Below are positions 210 to 6,483 of a stretch of DNA of 12,918 bases, piece after piece (the stretch's first letter is position 1; each line of letters opens with the position of its first letter). The DNA is taken from NCBI GenBank assembly GCA_003661385.1, contig QMWA01000028.1, forward strand, positions 1 to 12,918. Reading direction: 5' to 3'. The notes beneath the pieces are model-generated. The model made no database searches. It was not told the DNA's origin and saw only the letters and a program-made list of their open reading frames with translations. The DNA is from Thermoproteota archaeon (GTDB taxonomy: Archaea; Korarchaeota; Korarchaeia; B14-G2). A program made the translations under genes and the position numbers.

Positions 210-246
210 GCTAGCGGGGGTAGCCAAGCCTGGCCAACGGCGGCAG

Positions 247-258
247 TGAAACGCTGAG
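247..258 (+). other. Non-canonical tRNA intron (position 30/31), 12 nt
   Basis: The segment TGAAACGCTGAG interrupts the 5' anticodon strand between tRNA positions 30 and 31. This register forms a full bulge-helix-bulge: central 4-bp helix 241-244 with 253-256 (C-G, G-U, G-C, C-G), and 3-nt bulges AG|T and AG|A, each cut after the second base. The inner part is one G-C pair closing an AAA loop. Two shifted registers (245-256 and 246-257) would give the same mature sequence but do not form this motif. Such introns are known to need a heteromeric archaeal splicing endonuclease. Confidence 0.85.
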
Positions 259-271
259 ACTCAAGATCTGC

Positions 272-310
272 TCCCTTAGGGGTTCGTGGGTTCAAATCCC
301 ACCCCCCGCA
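272..310 (+). repeat. 39-bp perfect direct repeat, copy 1 (3' part of tRNA-Leu)
   Basis: The variable arm, T arm and 3' acceptor of this tRNA match bases 2319-2357 exactly. The match ends at the discriminator base in both copies and the flanking bases differ. The pair brackets about 2 kb holding two protein genes. Shared tRNA ancestry is the simplest explanation. Confidence 0.9.
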
Positions 311-324
311 CTCGGGTGCAGAAG

Positions 325-1089
325 ATGAGACTGTCAACAACCTTGATGCTAATGGTGCTTGGGGTAGTAGCTATCACAGTAGTCAGCTTTCTGATACCTG
401 GAAAAGAGAGGAGTCCTCCATTTGAGCTTAAGGTCAGGCTTGTGACCCCAGAGAGGTGTGTTTACGAGAGCTCTGGTGGAGATAGCAGAGTCAGGGTTGT
501 GATGGAGCTGACCTCTCAGGTAGAGCTCAACGGGAGCATGTTCTATAGGATAGTCGGGAGCATACGCGAGGAGGAAGAGGAAAGCTTCTATATGGTGAGG
601 GAAGAGCTCCTCGCCTCGTGCAACAGCCTTCTGCCCTTCATGGTGAACCTCACATACATAAACAACAGCATCACCGTAGCTAAGCTTAACATGACCTTCA
701 GCCAGGAGAGAGGGAAGGTCCTGATCTGTTTCCACAGGGTTGGGCTTGAAAAAGCCAAGACAGCCTGCATAGAGCCAGGTAGGAAGGTCTATGACTCTCT
801 CTCAGAGCTGTATTTCCTCAGGTCTATTAGCTGGAGGGAGGGAGTTGTAGTTAGGTTCTATTACTTGGCATCAGACTTCAAGGTTGAGGAAGTAGAGGCC
901 TCCTTTGCAGGATATGAGAACCTGACAGTTCCAGCTGGCAGCTTTAGCTGCGTGAGAGTGTTCATAAAGACACCTAAGCAGGAGATCTGGCTTTGGATAA
1001 GCTTGGCTCCACCCCACCCGATAGTTCAAATTGAGAGTAGAGGAGAAGAAAAGACTCTTCTCAAGCTTGTGGAGTACAGATCTAGCTAG
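325..1089 (+). CDS. Membrane-anchored exported protein of unknown function
   Basis: This 254-residue protein has one hydrophobic N-terminal segment (about residues 5-25) ending in FLIPGKE, which should act as an uncleaved anchor or signal peptide, followed by a soluble, probably extracytoplasmic domain. Five N-glycosylation sequons are visible (NGS, NLT twice, NNS, NMT). The C-terminal pattern NLTVPAGSFSCVRV, then a Trp-containing strand, P-H-P-I-V-Q-I-E and a final LVEY, resembles beta-rich DUF3108-like domains, but I cannot assign a family securely. ATG 325 is chosen because the longer frame runs back into the tRNA; GTG 316 is an alternative. The start is 14 nt after tRNA-Leu(CAA) with no separate promoter. 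The stop overlaps the convergent regulator gene by 8 bp. Its position opposite a membrane-tethered regulator suggests, without proof, a shared envelope role. Confidence 0.8.
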   Translation: MRLSTTLMLMVLGVVAITVVSFLIPGKERSPPFELKVRLVTPERCVYESSGGDSRVRVVMELTSQVELNGSMFYRIVGSIREEEEESFYMVREELLASCNSLLPFMVNLTYINNSITVAKLNMTFSQERGKVLICFHRVGLEKAKTACIEPGRKVYDSLSELYFLRSISWREGVVVRFYYLASDFKVEEVEASFAGYENLTVPAGSFSCVRVFIKTPKQEIWLWISLAPPHPIVQIESRGEEKTLLKLVEYRSS

Positions 1090-2092
1090 GCTCCTGGAAC
1101 AGACCAGCTACGCTCTTAGATAGCACTATGATGTTGGTCTTCCCCTGAGGCTTCTTGACGACTAGCCCCTTTTCCTCCAGAACCTTCAGAACCCTACTGA
1201 CCTTCGCCTTGGACAGGCCTGTTGCCTCTGGAAGCTCCTTTTGCAGCATGGATCCGCCAGCATCCAGTATCACCCTCAAGATGGCCCTCTCGTCATTTGT
1301 TAGAAGATCCATGCTGTTTATCTTTGGAAGCCTAGCCCTTCTCCTAGCCCTCATGAAGGCTACAGCTGCAACCGAGGCGCCACCTCCGACAATTAGCACA
1401 GCTACCACTGCGAGCATCGGAACCCTGCTACTCTCGCTTGCTACAACAGACGCTGAAACAGATATCCTCTGTCCGGGGGCTAGCTTGCTGAAGCTCCACT
1501 CTATTGTCATCTCACCAGACCATATATTCAGAGCAGTCCTGTTTGGTGTTGGAAAGTATACAGGGAGAGCTTCGACTATCTGCTTTGCTATATACCCCTC
1601 TGGGAGGATGACCTTTATCAGGACGCTATCAACAGAGGCATTTGGGCAGAAGAACTCATAGGACAGGTAGAACTTCTCCCCTTCGAGGACGCCAATCTTG
1701 ACATTACGCCGGTAAGCGAAGACAATCACCTTAAACTTAAATTGCTCGCTTGAGCCAGGTGGGATCTCCTGCTTGAACACAACCGCCACAGAGTCGCGGA
1801 AACCAGAGGTGTTGCTTAAGATCTCTACTGTGTACTTCTGCTCACCTCCTGCAGGCTCTGGAAAGGCCTCGCTGACCCTGTACTTCCTGTGAGCTTCACG
1901 CGGAATCACCGGGAAGACCACGGATTTTATCGGAGATCCGCCGCTGTTCACTACCGAGCCTGAAACAACCATAGTCACTGGCCCATCTGGTGGAACGAGA
2001 AGCTCTACTTTAAGCTCAGGAATGGTAGCCTCAGCCTGCTGTGGAAGAAACCCCGTGAAAGCCAGCAGGACAAGCATCAACACCTTAGCCAA
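1082..2092 (-). CDS. Membrane-tethered winged-helix transcription regulator with ectodomain
   Basis: This 336-residue protein reads in order: a Sec signal peptide (residues 1-22, MAKVLMLVLLAFTGF then QQAEA); an extracytoplasmic beta-rich region to about 224 with sequons NTS, NAS and NRT; one membrane helix (about 225-247) followed by the basic stop-transfer RARRRAR; and a cytoplasmic winged helix-turn-helix (about 262-325) with LTNDERAILRVILDAGG, recognition-helix region LSKAKVSRVLKVLEEKG and wing LVVKKPQGKTN. The last domain is MarR/IclR-like, as in many archaeal membrane HTH proteins. It could sense an envelope signal and act on DNA at the membrane; ligand and targets are unknown. TTG 2092 is chosen because AAGGTG lies 7 nt before it and because a TATA box at 2142-2150 leaves the upstream GTG 2140 too close to be transcribed. 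ATG 2077 is an alternative. Confidence 0.85.
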   Translation of the reverse strand: MAKVLMLVLLAFTGFLPQQAEATIPELKVELLVPPDGPVTMVVSGSVVNSGGSPIKSVVFPVIPREAHRKYRVSEAFPEPAGGEQKYTVEILSNTSGFRDSVAVVFKQEIPPGSSEQFKFKVIVFAYRRNVKIGVLEGEKFYLSYEFFCPNASVDSVLIKVILPEGYIAKQIVEALPVYFPTPNRTALNIWSGEMTIEWSFSKLAPGQRISVSASVVASESSRVPMLAVVAVLIVGGGASVAAVAFMRARRRARLPKINSMDLLTNDERAILRVILDAGGSMLQKELPEATGLSKAKVSRVLKVLEEKGLVVKKPQGKTNIIVLSKSVAGLFQEPS

Positions 2093-2141
2093 CTCATGAC
2101 ACCTTAATATGATGGTGCTGAAACTCCTATCTGACGGCACC

Positions 2142-2150
2142 TTTATACTT
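2142..2150 (-). promoter_or_regulatory. TATA box of the membrane winged-helix regulator
   Basis: Read on the minus strand the box is AAGTATAAA. A transcript start about 25 bp downstream (near 2120) gives a short leader of roughly 28 nt with an AAGGTG ribosome binding site (2100-2105) before TTG 2092. This rules against the longer GTG start at 2140. Confidence 0.65.
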
Positions 2151-2200
2151 TTCCTAAGCTGTTGTAGTCTAGAGTGCAGACAGCAGCACGCCCATAGGAT

Positions 2201-2211: not shown

Positions 2212-2271
2212 CCCAACCTTAGAAAGCATAGACTAGAGGCGGGGGTTGCCGAGCCTGGACAAAGGCGCAGG

Positions 2272-2289
2272 AGCCGTCATGGCGGTGTG
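2272..2289 (+). other. Non-canonical tRNA intron (position 30/31), 18 nt
   Basis: This intron occupies the same 30/31 position as the one in tRNA-Leu(CAA). In this register, three of four central pairs form between 2266-2269 and 2284-2287 (C-G, G-U, C-G, then A/G mismatch), with 3-nt bulges GG|A and TG|A. An inner hairpin pairs GCCG 2273-2276 with TGGC 2280-2283 around a TCA loop. A register one base to the right (2273-2290) would give the same mature RNA. Confidence 0.8.
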
Positions 2290-2296
2290 ACTTAAG

Positions 2297-2312
2297 ATCT
2301 AGGTGGTGAGTA
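2297..2312 (+). other. Canonical tRNA intron (position 37/38), 16 nt
   Basis: The intron lies directly 3' of the anticodon loop base G37. It forms a regular bulge-helix-bulge: central helix CTTA 2291-2294 with TGAG 2307-2310 (one G-U pair), and bulges AG|A (2295-2297) and TA|A (2311-2313). The inner helix is only about 2 bp. The outer helix is the anticodon stem CAGGA/TCCTG, which itself is interrupted by the 30/31 intron. Confidence 0.85.
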
Positions 2313-2318
2313 ATCCTG

Positions 2319-2357
2319 TCCCTTAGGGGTTCGTGGGTTCAAATCCCACCCCCCGCA
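2319..2357 (+). repeat. 39-bp perfect direct repeat, copy 2 (3' part of tRNA-Leu)
   Basis: Identical to 272-310 over 39 bases, ending exactly at the tRNA discriminator base. The two copies are 2047 bp apart in the same orientation. Confidence 0.9.
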
Positions 2358-3646: not shown

Positions 3647-3672
3647 ATTTTATATTAAGTTTTTTGGTTGAT

Positions 3673-4620
3673 ATGCGAGAGCTTATAGGTGAGATACCTA
3701 AGAAGTGCCCATACTGTGGTAGTGACAGGATAATAATAGATGTGGGTAGCGGAGAAGCTGTCTGCATGGGGTGTGGCAGAGTAATAGAAGAGAACCTCAT
3801 AGACAGCGGGAAAGAGTGGAGAGAGTTCGATGATGAGGTGAGCGCTGAAAGGGCTAGAGTAGGGCCCTCAACGTCCCCTGTCAAGGTGGGCTTTGGGCTG
3901 ACAACAGAGTTCGATCTCTATAGCAAGGGAGTAAAGCTCCCTCAGGAAATAAGGAAGAAGGCAGGGAAGATAGCTCTGCTCCAGTGGAGAGCAACCAGAG
4001 ACACTATGCCAAAGAGGTCTGTCAGTACAGCACTACCACAGCTTAAGAGGGCTGCTTCAAGCCTAGGGCTCTCAGACCACGTGATAGAAGAGGCAGCCAT
4101 GATATACAGGAAGGCGTCAGCAGCAGACCTGATTAAGGGCAGAAGTGTGATAGCAACAATAGCAGCAGCAGTGTACATAGCTGTAAGGCTCAACCACGTC
4201 GCAAGAACACTTGAAGAAGTAGCTAAGGAATTTGGGATCTCAGAGAAGGACCTTGGGAGGAACTTCAGGCTCTTAATCAGAGAACTCAACTTAAAGCTCC
4301 CACCTCCATCACCAGAGGCCTTCGTTGAGAGAATCTGCAGAGAGCTGAAGCTCCCAGGTGAAGTCGCTGCTAAAGCCCATCAAGTGCTGAAAAAGGCTAG
4401 AGAGGCTGGGATAACAATGGGCAAGGAGCCCTGTGGGATAGCTGCAGCAGCAGTATACATGGCCTGCCAGGAAACCAATGAGAAAAGAACTCAGAGGGAG
4501 CTAGCTCAAGCAGCTGGAGTGACAGAGGTAACAGTCAGGAACAGGTTTAAGGAGCTTGTAAACAAGCTTTACCCCGGCAAGGCTATAGTCGAGGAGATCG
4601 CTAGCAAAAGAAGGGAGTAG
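3673..4620 (+). CDS. tfb: Transcription initiation factor TFB
   Basis: TFB, the archaeal TFIIB, bridges TBP-bound promoter DNA and RNA polymerase. The 315-residue product has an N-terminal zinc ribbon with CPYC (residues 12-15) and CMGC (31-34), the B-reader/linker region with KEWREFDDE and ERARVGPS, and two cyclin-fold repeats (about 105-200 and 205-300), the second ending in the helix-turn-helix-like TQRELAQAAGVTEVTVRNRFKEL that in this family reads the BRE. Length and all zinc ligands are normal. ATG 3673 is preferred; a TTG at 3664 is possible in the same frame and equally close to the predicted transcript start. The stop codon abuts that of the convergent aIF1 gene with no base between. 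Confidence 0.97.
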   Translation: MRELIGEIPKKCPYCGSDRIIIDVGSGEAVCMGCGRVIEENLIDSGKEWREFDDEVSAERARVGPSTSPVKVGFGLTTEFDLYSKGVKLPQEIRKKAGKIALLQWRATRDTMPKRSVSTALPQLKRAASSLGLSDHVIEEAAMIYRKASAADLIKGRSVIATIAAAVYIAVRLNHVARTLEEVAKEFGISEKDLGRNFRLLIRELNLKLPPPSPEAFVERICRELKLPGEVAAKAHQVLKKAREAGITMGKEPCGIAAAAVYMACQETNEKRTQRELAQAAGVTEVTVRNRFKELVNKLYPGKAIVEEIASKRRE

Positions 4621-4923
4621 CTACTCCTCTACCTCTATCCTCTCAGATGGGAACCCACGCTTTTCGAGTAGCTCTCGGACTCTTCTCGTATGCCTGCCTT
4701 GTAGGATTATCATGTTCTCCTTGACAGTTCCACCACAAGCGCACTTGGACTTCAAGTACTTGGCTATGTCATATATGTCGTCATCAGGGACGCCCTCTAT
4801 TATGGTTACATCCTTCCCCCACTTCCTTTTCTCAACCCTTATTTTGATCACTTGAAGCTCTAGCTCGCGGGTTTTACATGTGCAGAGTGCTATTGGTAGC
4901 CCACAGATTTCACATCTCTCCAT
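4621..4923 (-). CDS. sui1: Translation initiation factor aIF1 (SUI1 family)
   Basis: aIF1 binds the small ribosomal subunit near the P site and enforces start-codon fidelity. The 100-residue protein has the archaeal N-terminal cysteine cluster CEICGLPIALCTC (C4, C7, C13, C15) and the SUI1 core: KRKWGKDVTIIEGV, DIAKYLKSKCACGGTVK (the family signature LKSKCACGGT) and IILQGRHTRRVRELLEKRGF. Length is normal. ATG 4923 gives the usual N-terminus. Its tail meets the TFB stop. Its promoter is read leftward from the 152-bp gap shared with rpoP. The gene is essential in archaea and nothing appears missing. Confidence 0.96.
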   Translation of the reverse strand: MERCEICGLPIALCTCKTRELELQVIKIRVEKRKWGKDVTIIEGVPDDDIYDIAKYLKSKCACGGTVKENMIILQGRHTRRVRELLEKRGFPSERIEVEE

Positions 4924-4942
4924 GATATCCCACAGCTGCTCT

Positions 4943-4977
4943 GCTCTCTAGAGCATACCTTCCTAGGGTTTTAAAAC
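4943..4977 (-). promoter_or_regulatory. aIF1 promoter with a palindromic TATA box and an inverted repeat at the start site
   Basis: GTTTTAAAAC (4968-4977) is a perfect palindrome and the likely TATA box for leftward transcription. About 24 bp away, at the predicted transcript start, lies GCTCT-CT-AGAGC (4943-4954), an inverted repeat with 5-bp arms that could bind a regulator or form a hairpin in the leader of about 23 nt. Confidence 0.45.
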
Positions 4978-5035
4978 TTTATCATTGCTCTAAAGCCAGG
5001 AACTTAGGTAGAGTAAGAGGAATACCTGAGGCAAG

Positions 5036-5044
5036 TTTTAAAGG
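5036..5044 (+). promoter_or_regulatory. TATA box of the rpoP-signal peptidase operon
   Basis: TTTTAAAGG lies 36 bp before ATG 5076 and predicts a start near 5065. This makes the in-frame GTG at 5046 unlikely to be transcribed as a start codon. Confidence 0.55.
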
Positions 5045-5075
5045 AGTGCAATGGAGCCTGGTTCAGGTATTAGTC

Positions 5076-5228
5076 ATGAGCTATATATGTGCTAAGTGCA
5101 AGAGGACATTGACCATTGAGCAGCTTCAGGCAAGCTTCATGAGCCCTAGAGCAAGATGTGTTTACTGCCAGTCTAAGATCCTATTTAAGGCGAGGCCACC
5201 CGTTGTGAGGAGGGTTAAGGCGGTATGA
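5076..5228 (+). CDS. rpoP: DNA-directed RNA polymerase subunit P (Rpo12)
   Basis: A 50-residue zinc-binding subunit of archaeal RNA polymerase, the counterpart of eukaryotic Rpb12. The zinc ligands are CAKC (residues 5-8) and CVYC (about 28-31), followed by the family tail KILFKARPP and RRVKAV. ATG 5076 gives exactly the normal length and the expected MSYICAKC start; the longer frame from GTG 5046 adds ten residues with no family support and starts upstream of the predicted transcript start. The TGA stop overlaps the ATG of the signal peptidase gene (ATGA at 5225-5228), so the two are probably translationally coupled. Confidence 0.95.
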   Translation: MSYICAKCKRTLTIEQLQASFMSPRARCVYCQSKILFKARPPVVRRVKAV

Positions 5229-5785
5229 GCCTAGGAAAGCGAGCTGCTAGAAATATAGCCTCAGTGGTCCTGCTTGCAGCAGCAGTATACCTCGCCACAA
5301 ACGTCCTCATAGTGTACGCACTCGGAACCAAGACTCCATTTACCGTCGTCACAAGCGGGTCGATGAGGCCGACCTTGAAGGAAGGAGACCTACTCATAGT
5401 TAGAGGGGTCAGGAGCCCAAGTGCCCTTAAAGAAGGAGACATAATAGTCTTCAGGTATAAGTTTAGTGACAAGCCCGTTGTGCACAGGATAATCAGAGTC
5501 ATACGCACAGAGCACGGAGAAGTGTACTTCCAGACCAAAGGCGACGCCAACCCAGCCCCTGATGCAGGATATAGGACGGCAAGAGACATACTAGGAGTAG
5601 TTGCTGTCAGAATCCCAAAGCTGGGATATGTATTCTGGTTCTTTCACACAACAGAGGGGAGGGTTCTAGCGGTAGTGCTCATAGCTGGCATAGTGGTGTG
5701 GAGCATAATCGGAGAAGAGAGGGAGAAAGAGAGGAAAGCTGAGCATGGGGAGGAAGCTGAAGCTACCGCTGACCTGAATAAGTAA
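5225..5785 (+). CDS. sec11: Signal peptidase I, archaeal/ER type (Sec11-like)
   Basis: This membrane protease removes Sec signal peptides on the outer face of the membrane. The 186-residue protein has an N-terminal membrane helix (about 11-32), the catalytic-serine box SGSMRPTLKEGD (Ser46), the second box VVHRIIRV whose His87 replaces the lysine used by bacterial enzymes, and KGDANPAPDAG with Asp107 and Asp113 as candidates for the acidic residue of the Ser-His-Asp mechanism. A second membrane helix (about 147-162) and a charged cytoplasmic tail of about 20 residues follow. It overlaps rpoP by ATGA and has GAGGAGG a little upstream as a ribosome binding site. Two exported proteins encoded earlier in the window would be clients of this pathway. 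Confidence 0.95.
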   Translation: MSLGKRAARNIASVVLLAAAVYLATNVLIVYALGTKTPFTVVTSGSMRPTLKEGDLLIVRGVRSPSALKEGDIIVFRYKFSDKPVVHRIIRVIRTEHGEVYFQTKGDANPAPDAGYRTARDILGVVAVRIPKLGYVFWFFHTTEGRVLAVVLIAGIVVWSIIGEEREKERKAEHGEEAEATADLNK

Positions 5786-5807
5786 AGGATCTTCACAAAG
5801 TCATGAG

Positions 5808-5822
5808 TATACATGCTGTATA
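5808..5822. repeat. Inverted repeat upstream of the TBP promoter
   Basis: The perfect 6-bp arms TATACA and TGTATA flank a TGC centre. The site is 15 bp upstream of the TBP TATA core and 22 bp after the signal peptidase stop, so it could be an operator for tbp or a small 3' hairpin. Confidence 0.5.
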
Positions 5823-5832
5823 GTTACCACCA

Positions 5833-5845
5833 TATATTTATAAAG
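5833..5845 (+). promoter_or_regulatory. Strong TATA box of the tbp operon
   Basis: TATATTTATAAAG contains TTTATAAA centred at 5841, exactly 25 bp before GTG 5866. The predicted transcript therefore begins at the start codon. Confidence 0.75.
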
Positions 5846-5865
5846 TGTCAATGCAATAAGCGAGT

Positions 5866-6483
5866 GTGGGATGTTTGAGCAGCGTGAGAAGGAGTGAGCA
5901 GATTAAGCTAGAAGACTTGCCAGAGCCTTCAATAAACATAGAGAATGTCGTTGCATCTGTTGTGATAAACCAGAGGCTTGACCTCCACAAGATAGAACAG
6001 CTGATACCTGGAGCTACATTTAACCCAGATAAGTTCCCAGGGCTCATCTTAAAGCTTAAGGAGCCAAAGACTGCACTTTTGATATTCAGCAGCGGCAAGT
6101 TCGTCTGCACTGGAGCTAAGTCAGCAGCTACAGTGGCTAAAGCCGTCAACAAGGTTATAGAGATGCTTAACGCTAGGGGCATAAAGATCACGGGAAAGCC
6201 ATTAATCAAAGTTGAGAACATAGTAGCCTCAGCTAAGCTGCATGTTACAGTAGACCTCGAGAGGGCGTCTGTAGAGCTTGAGGGGACTGTATACGAGCCA
6301 GAGCAGTTTCCTGGAATGATCCTGAGGATGGAGAACCCGAACGTCGTCTTCCTGGTGTTCTCCTCTGGAAGCCTGGTGTGTACAGGGGCTAAGAAGGAAG
6401 AGGATGTCTATAAGGCAGTTTATAAGCTTAGGAGGATCCTAGCTGAAAAGGGGCTGATAATAAGTGTAGCCCTTAGGGGATGA
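5866..6483 (+). CDS. tbp: TATA-box-binding protein TBP
   Basis: TBP binds and bends the TATA box and recruits TFB. The 205-residue product shows the two direct repeats of the saddle fold: IENVVASVVINQRLDL...PDKFPGLILKL...LLIFSSGKFVCTGAKS (about 25-105) and VENIVASAKLHVTVDL...PEQFPGMILRM...FLVFSSGSLVCTGAKK (about 115-195). The repeats are clearly related to each other, as in all TBPs. GTG 5866 is chosen because it sits at the predicted transcript start; TTG 5875 and GTG 5884 are in-frame alternatives that would trim an N-terminal extension slightly longer than usual. Only 4 nt separate its stop from the next gene, fbp, so the two are probably co-transcribed. Confidence 0.97.
   Translation: MGCLSSVRRSEQIKLEDLPEPSINIENVVASVVINQRLDLHKIEQLIPGATFNPDKFPGLILKLKEPKTALLIFSSGKFVCTGAKSAATVAKAVNKVIEMLNARGIKITGKPLIKVENIVASAKLHVTVDLERASVELEGTVYEPEQFPGMILRMENPNVVFLVFSSGSLVCTGAKKEEDVYKAVYKLRRILAEKGLIISVALRG

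Follow-up and report, generated by a model that had tools for sequence, protein, structure and literature searches.

A putative transmembrane transcription regulator of Korarchaeia with a predicted ribophorin I-like ectodomain

Background

Transmembrane transcription regulators (TTRs) are known as a class, and in the part of a census covered here the single-pass proteins are their commonest form (PMC10269533). Among archaea, ArnR and ArnR1 of Sulfolobus are membrane-bound one-component regulators, for the first of which DNA binding has been shown, and they have the HTH at the N-terminus, HAMP-like and sensor parts, and two membrane helices at the C-terminus (PMC6396743). The closest layout is found in the membrane regulators carrying Pfam DUF7343 (PF24034), including haloarchaeal DUF7345-DUF7343 proteins, which have a signal peptide or N-terminal helix, an ectodomain, one membrane helix and a C-terminal DUF7343 domain. 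In regulators of the ToxR/CadC type an outer sensor and a DNA-binding domain are also linked across one helix, in the opposite order, with the DNA-binding domain N-terminal and belonging to a different winged-helix family.

A further protein to which our results will be compared is Ost1 (ribophorin I), reported in TACK and Asgard archaea (PMC11417166, PMC10307638) and described as binding glycosylated peptides (PMC7226087); the cytoplasmic part of the Asgard protein binds ribosomes (PMC11417166). In Ost1 structures (6ezn, 6s7o, 8b6l) domain II is followed directly by a single membrane helix of type I.

Here we report on a gene found in a window of 12,918 nucleotides, meaning the whole stretch of DNA analysed; it corresponds to contig C28 in a genome of 1.74 Mb and 206 contigs. 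This genome sits alone in its own family (f1) within the class Korarchaeia, represented by 26 genomes. Our best reading is that the gene encodes a known kind of regulator carrying a sensor domain that is unreported with it in the open-access literature searched.

Results and Discussion

Gene structure and protein layout

The minus strand encodes the gene (1082..2092); the plus-strand frame over the same positions is riddled with stops. The open minus-strand frame runs from a GTG at 2140 to a stop ending at 1082 and gives 352 residues (P0001). The TTG at 2092, which gives 336 residues and was also the start of the original prediction, appears to be the better one, because a Shine-Dalgarno-like AAGGTG (2100..2105, minus strand) is found by eye 8 bases before it and because of a TATA-like box, AAAAGTATAAAG (2141..2152, minus strand), a predicted promoter recognized by its consensus by eye only. 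Transcription from this box would begin near 2117, that is downstream of GTG 2140. Residue numbers in this paper are those of P0001, and those of the original prediction are lower by 16. The reading frame exceeds chance, since its layout recurs across the class and a profile that leaves out the window copy still finds its ectodomain (E 2.9e-17, compared with 0.037 for the best of 2,000 shuffles).

The protein has a type I layout, with a signal peptide, an ectodomain outside, one helix and a winged helix inside, all its parts being encoded on the minus strand. The signal peptide of 22 residues, MAKVLMLVLLAFTGFLPQQAEA (2027..2092), ends in AxA at the predicted cleavage site and is supported by the hydrophobic stretch of residues 10-28; a similar N-terminal stretch is present in nearly all relatives. 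It is followed by a beta ectodomain of about 200 residues (39-240, 1421..2026), defined by the AlphaFold model, the fold match and the profile, and by a single transmembrane helix (241-263, 1352..1420), evident in the model and in hydropathy. Next comes the positive-inside, stop-transfer segment RARRRAR (264-270, 1331..1351), evident in the sequence and in the charge asymmetry. The winged helix-turn-helix, assigned by Pfam to DUF7343, occupies residues 280-340 (1121..1303). One K/R flanks the membrane helix before it and six after it, and the same asymmetry is found in nearly every relative, which favours a cytoplasmic C-terminus. The order of parts read originally from the letters of the sequence is thus borne out by sequence, hydropathy, charge, Pfam and the AlphaFold model, and the predicted cytoplasmic C-terminus is supported by the charges of the protein and of nearly all its relatives.

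With respect to the systems described above, the protein combines a predicted DNA-binding domain and a membrane helix in one chain, as TTRs do, and the part of the TTR census covered here mentions neither Korarchaeota nor an Ost1-like ectodomain (PMC10269533). In comparison with ArnR and ArnR1, its parts are in reverse order, and those proteins are without the large outer domain.

The winged helix and the family in Korarchaeia

The winged helix matches DUF7343 with 58.7 bits (cut-off 27.6, E 5.3e-16), and further Pfam matches are MarR_2 (9e-10) and the IclR HTH (2e-6), confirming that the domain is MarR/IclR-like as had been proposed. All 20 members of alignment A1 match DUF7343. In the AlphaFold model the domain resembles MarR/ArsR winged helices (for example 7wze_A, Z 12.3, 1.5 A over 72 residues), while the N- and C-terminal dimerisation helices of classical MarR proteins, which are soluble dimers, are absent, the window protein having the winged helix only, joined to the membrane helix. 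The most conserved part of the whole protein is the recognition helix region, GLSKAKVSRVLKVLEE (residues 308-323, 1172..1219, minus strand), with a mean column identity of 0.90 versus 0.48 in the ectodomain. That archaeal membrane HTH proteins of such a layout are known as sequence families, as originally stated, agrees with the DUF7343 family and with the covered part of the TTR census (PMC10269533); searches of open-access literature for COG2512 and DUF7343 turned up nothing relevant.

DUF7343-type proteins are present in all 26 genomes of the class, and among them at least three types of ectodomain are carried by one membrane-helix/DUF7343 module. Type A, the ectodomain of the window protein (alignments A1 and A3), defines a divergent family found in nearly all of the 26 genomes, including Thermoproteota/Crenarchaeota MAGs and Candidatus Methanodesulfokora washburnensis among the named ones; relatives were not found in plasmid records. 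The window protein shares 16-24% identity with other type A members in the ectodomain and 41-52% in the winged helix. In type B the ectodomain is a CWB2 cell-wall-binding domain (PF04122), present in 15 of the 17 paralogues scanned (alignment A2). Such one-helix CWB2-DUF7343 paralogues are widespread in the class (loci L055-L074, for instance L055:9235-10239, minus strand).

The third type is DUF7345, found in haloarchaea and, in the window genome (G000), on contig C32 (L056:7455-8381, minus strand), in a protein with the haloarchaeal layout whose match (E 3.5e-25) is the only one in that genome. DUF7345 (PF24036) was considered for the window ectodomain as well and rejected, as neither the window protein nor its orthologues have a Pfam match to it; locus L066 belongs to the family of the window protein, and the DUF7345 match comes from L056. 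In its ectodomain the window protein therefore differs from the DUF7345-DUF7343 proteins. The occurrence of the same module on CWB2 and DUF7345 ectodomains in the same organisms would be as expected of a sensor-swapping regulator.

In our opinion the window protein is likely to be a transmembrane one-component transcription regulator of the DUF7343 kind. A regulator held in the membrane is the most economical reading, because the recognition helix is the most conserved element and because one module occurs with several kinds of outer domain.

Predicted fold of the ectodomain

The ectodomain was modelled twice with AlphaFold, using different lead sequences (the window protein and its relative L040). 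Fold search gave domain II of Ost1/ribophorin I as the best structural match of both models: Z 15.4, rmsd 2.4 A and 169 aligned residues for the window, and Z 17.0, rmsd 6.7 A over 192 for L040, in an alignment that runs into the Ost1 membrane helix. Other matches of the L040 model have 3.1-3.6 A over 182-187 residues with Z about 15. The N-domains of M1 aminopeptidases trail in the two models with Z 11.3 and 12.8, and Pfam finds no M1 zinc-binding catalytic domain in the window protein. From these models a beta domain like domain II of ribophorin I/Ost1, of the M1-aminopeptidase-N-domain type, is well supported. The original prediction had described a beta-rich ectodomain of roughly 200 residues, which stands, and had been unable to place it, which no longer holds given the domain II-like fold of both models. 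The predicted fold and its position just before a single membrane helix are shared with Ost1, whereas the window protein is without domain I and has a winged helix instead of the cytoplasmic helical bundle.

At the sequence level the support for this kinship is only suggestive. Of 24,736 Pfam families compared with the window ectodomain, Ribophorin_I (PF04597) ranks second, with E 0.17 and 11.4 bits versus a cut-off of 25, so that by this cut-off the protein is not a member of the Ost1 family; DUF2207 is another weak match. When the class was scanned with PF04597 no genome passed the cut-off, and four of the seven sub-threshold matches were in type A genes, all from closely related genomes. 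With hhalign, the family aligned colinearly with human and yeast domain II (p 0.0038), and none of 200 column shuffles reached the score, the reported probability being only 8.75%; the human reference was checked letter for letter against 6s7o, and the yeast one was taken from the printed search alignment. The whole protein, the ectodomain profile A3 and the C-terminal half of the ectodomain were each searched against PDB sequences, and none of them returned a useful ectodomain match. Shared descent with Ost1 is possible.

Across the loci examined, the type A ectodomain profile finds type A proteins only, besides a weak match in L105 (E 6e-4). This protein (L105:1138-2838, plus strand) and that of L104 (319-2019, minus strand) are membrane proteins of 566 residues, DUF2207-like by eye and with no Pfam match at E 0.01. 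They match PF04597 and the type A profile weakly and end in a Cys-rich tail of the CVSCACACA type.

The same data bear on the possibility that the protein is a generic sensor of an envelope ligand, its ectodomain being a common beta scaffold of the M1 N-domain type unrelated to glycosylation. The good matches of the M1 N-domains (Z 11-13) and the weak one of DUF2207 are in keeping with this, and Foldseek alone does not separate Ost1 from the M1 group, their E-values overlapping. However, in both models Ost1/ribophorin chains score 2-4 Z units higher, including the approach to the membrane helix, and the hhalign alignment is colinear with a score that no column shuffle reaches. We give such a generic sensor somewhat less than an even chance; it alters the signal and leaves the reading as a regulator intact.

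The ectodomain carries a sequon that is conserved throughout type A. In the window protein it reads PNAS (residues 166-169, 1634..1645, minus strand), and in all type A members P166 and N167 are invariant, with S or T two places on (PNLT, PNVT, PNAT or PNIS elsewhere; alignments A1 and A3). With ectodomain identities of about 20%, this invariance of PN-x-[S/T] is notable. The oligosaccharyltransferase STT3/AglB is present in 24 of the 26 genomes, in the window genome on contig C79 and unlinked to the regulator, and its presence makes a glycosylated sequon thinkable. The motif may mark a glycosylated position, or it may be a structural turn that merely reads as a sequon.

An Ost1-like fold before a single membrane helix, together with STT3/AglB in nearly the whole class, could also suggest a structural relative of Ost1 acting in secretion or N-glycosylation, where the winged helix would serve protein or RNA contacts and not promoter control; the ribosome binding of Asgard Ost1 and conserved neighbours that act on RNA (see below) point the same way. 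This role is very improbable to us, considering that the match to DUF7343/MarR is clear, that conservation is highest in the recognition helix, that the same module occurs on unrelated ectodomains and that a PF04597 match over the cut-off is absent. A transcription regulator remains our preferred reading, and it leads to a bolder version: an envelope-stress regulator whose Ost1-related, sequon-bearing ectodomain would sense AglB activity or unglycosylated protein at the membrane and signal across the one helix to the DNA-bound winged helix. This idea of glycosylation or secretion sensing is a speculation, built on the fold likeness, the sequon and the presence of AglB, and we regard it as unlikely. 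No report of an Ost1-like domain joined to a DNA-binding domain was found in the open-access literature searched.

Gene neighbourhood and a candidate operator in Korarchaeaceae

The homologue survey revealed conserved neighbours in Korarchaeaceae, where the regulator is divergent from a gene with a Toprim domain, which is followed by an RNA-binding (PF01877) gene. Nearby are genes for RNase Z, an RNA methyltransferase, a GTPase, an M50 protease and an M20 peptidase, the methyltransferase, GTPase and peptidase being named from sequence by eye. In several genomes a gene similar to MCM helicase (cluster c8, L035:1-12153) adjoins the regulator; it encodes about 1,100 or 713 residues, and the long form has what by eye is an intein-like insertion.

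In 18-19 Korarchaeaceae loci the M50 protease gene (cluster c6) and the regulator are no more than a few genes apart, and this holds in Methanodesulfokora after rearrangement too. Such a site-2 protease could free the winged helix as a soluble regulator by regulated intramembrane proteolysis. Other conserved neighbours, however, are housekeeping genes (RNase Z, RNA methyltransferase, GTPase), and the linkage may be plain synteny. The M50 genes of the window genome are on contigs C59, C78 and C9, and that of genome G006 is likewise on another contig, so the protease was rejected as an obligate partner. Moreover, site-2 proteases usually cut type II helices, whereas the window protein is of type I. 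Release by proteolysis is in our view unlikely, and we continue with a regulator that acts while held in the membrane.

In the largest genus (g5) a strongly conserved block lies between the two divergent start codons, beside the TATA region, and carries a 12-bp interrupted inverted repeat, CGACY-NN-AGCCG. In a degenerate scan the 14 g5 members matched all 10 specified positions, with 0-1 of 200 shuffles as good; these genomes are related and not independent. Matches to a 14-base pattern, ATCGACYDKAGCCG, number about one per g5 genome, and 14 of the 16 are at the regulator/Toprim promoter. One match per genome was found in 14 of the 15 g5 genomes having the repeat at the regulator promoter, with the reversed control pattern near zero. 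Kindred, weaker repeats exist in genera g6 (L052, L066) and g4 (L048), the repeat was not significant in g3 and g7, and in Methanodesulfokora (g6) a similar sequence apparently falls within the Toprim coding region. Judging from these patterns, the repeat is a likely candidate operator in Korarchaeaceae. A local autoregulatory operator would suit it better than a regulon, because the pattern occurs about once per genome; use across a regulon was rejected at the stringency tried. It could also belong to the promoter of the Toprim gene and be read by another protein.

The window locus has neither the divergent Toprim/RNA-binding pair nor the M50 protease as neighbours, and the Toprim orthologue of this genome is on contig C125. 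No significant repeat was found upstream of the window gene, either in the degenerate scan (8 of 10 positions, equalled by 40 of 200 shuffles) or with the exact consensus (8 of 12, 407 of 1000). A 10/12 match, AGACTAGAGGCG (2230-2241), seen by eye just beyond the scanned stretch, with a rough chance of about 1% and overlapping the start of a tRNA gene, was not counted. Since the neighbourhood has been lost and no significant repeat lies upstream, the window copy shares the protein with the family and not the regulatory setting.

At this locus the regulator is convergent with a DUF3108 gene (286-1089, plus strand) and divergent from an apparent tRNA-Leu gene. The DUF3108 protein has an N-terminal hydrophobic stretch, and its gene overlaps the 3' end of the regulator by 8 bases and was not found near the family elsewhere. 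The other genes of the window show no synteny near the family elsewhere, except for distant matches similar to acyl-CoA synthetase. A tRNA gene at 214-310 (plus strand; Rfam 36.3 bits, missed by ARAGORN) is by eye a tRNA-Leu whose anticodon is CAA and which has a small insertion close to the anticodon stem. Neither ARAGORN nor Rfam detected the apparent second tRNA-Leu, from which the regulator diverges (2239-2357, plus strand). By eye it has the anticodon UAA and is interrupted by a long intron, and its 3' end is the same as that of the first. The DUF3108/regulator pair is thus flanked by two tRNA-Leu genes, and an insertion site is possible. Close to the regulator there is also a cluster of general transcription factors (3664-6483, plus strand), in which about 1.2 kb containing the SUI1 and signal peptidase genes separates TFB from TBP.

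A model for the regulator

The protein probably relays a signal directly between the cell surface and a promoter; the signal, the DNA binding and the targets are what we infer. An event at the outer face, which might be a ligand, a partner protein or the state of the glycosylated envelope or secretion machinery, would alter how the cytoplasmic winged helices are paired or positioned, and these would bind as a dimer to a short operator with an inverted repeat. For Korarchaeaceae this operator would be CGACY-NN-AGCCG, between the regulator and the divergent Toprim and RNA-binding genes, so that the regulator would act on its own gene and possibly on the divergent pair as well. The window copy would have moved next to a tRNA-Leu gene.

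Conclusions

Membrane-bound regulators are common in archaea, and few have a known signal. In this family the predicted fold of the sensor is recognisable, its sequon is invariant and g5 genomes have essentially one candidate operator each, all of which would make both signal and target testable. Should the similarity to Ost1 domain II be due to common descent, it would bear on the origin of a subunit of the eukaryotic oligosaccharyltransferase. If, in addition, the sensing of glycosylation were true, the unit of Ost1 domain II and membrane helix would have existed in archaea outside the oligosaccharyltransferase.
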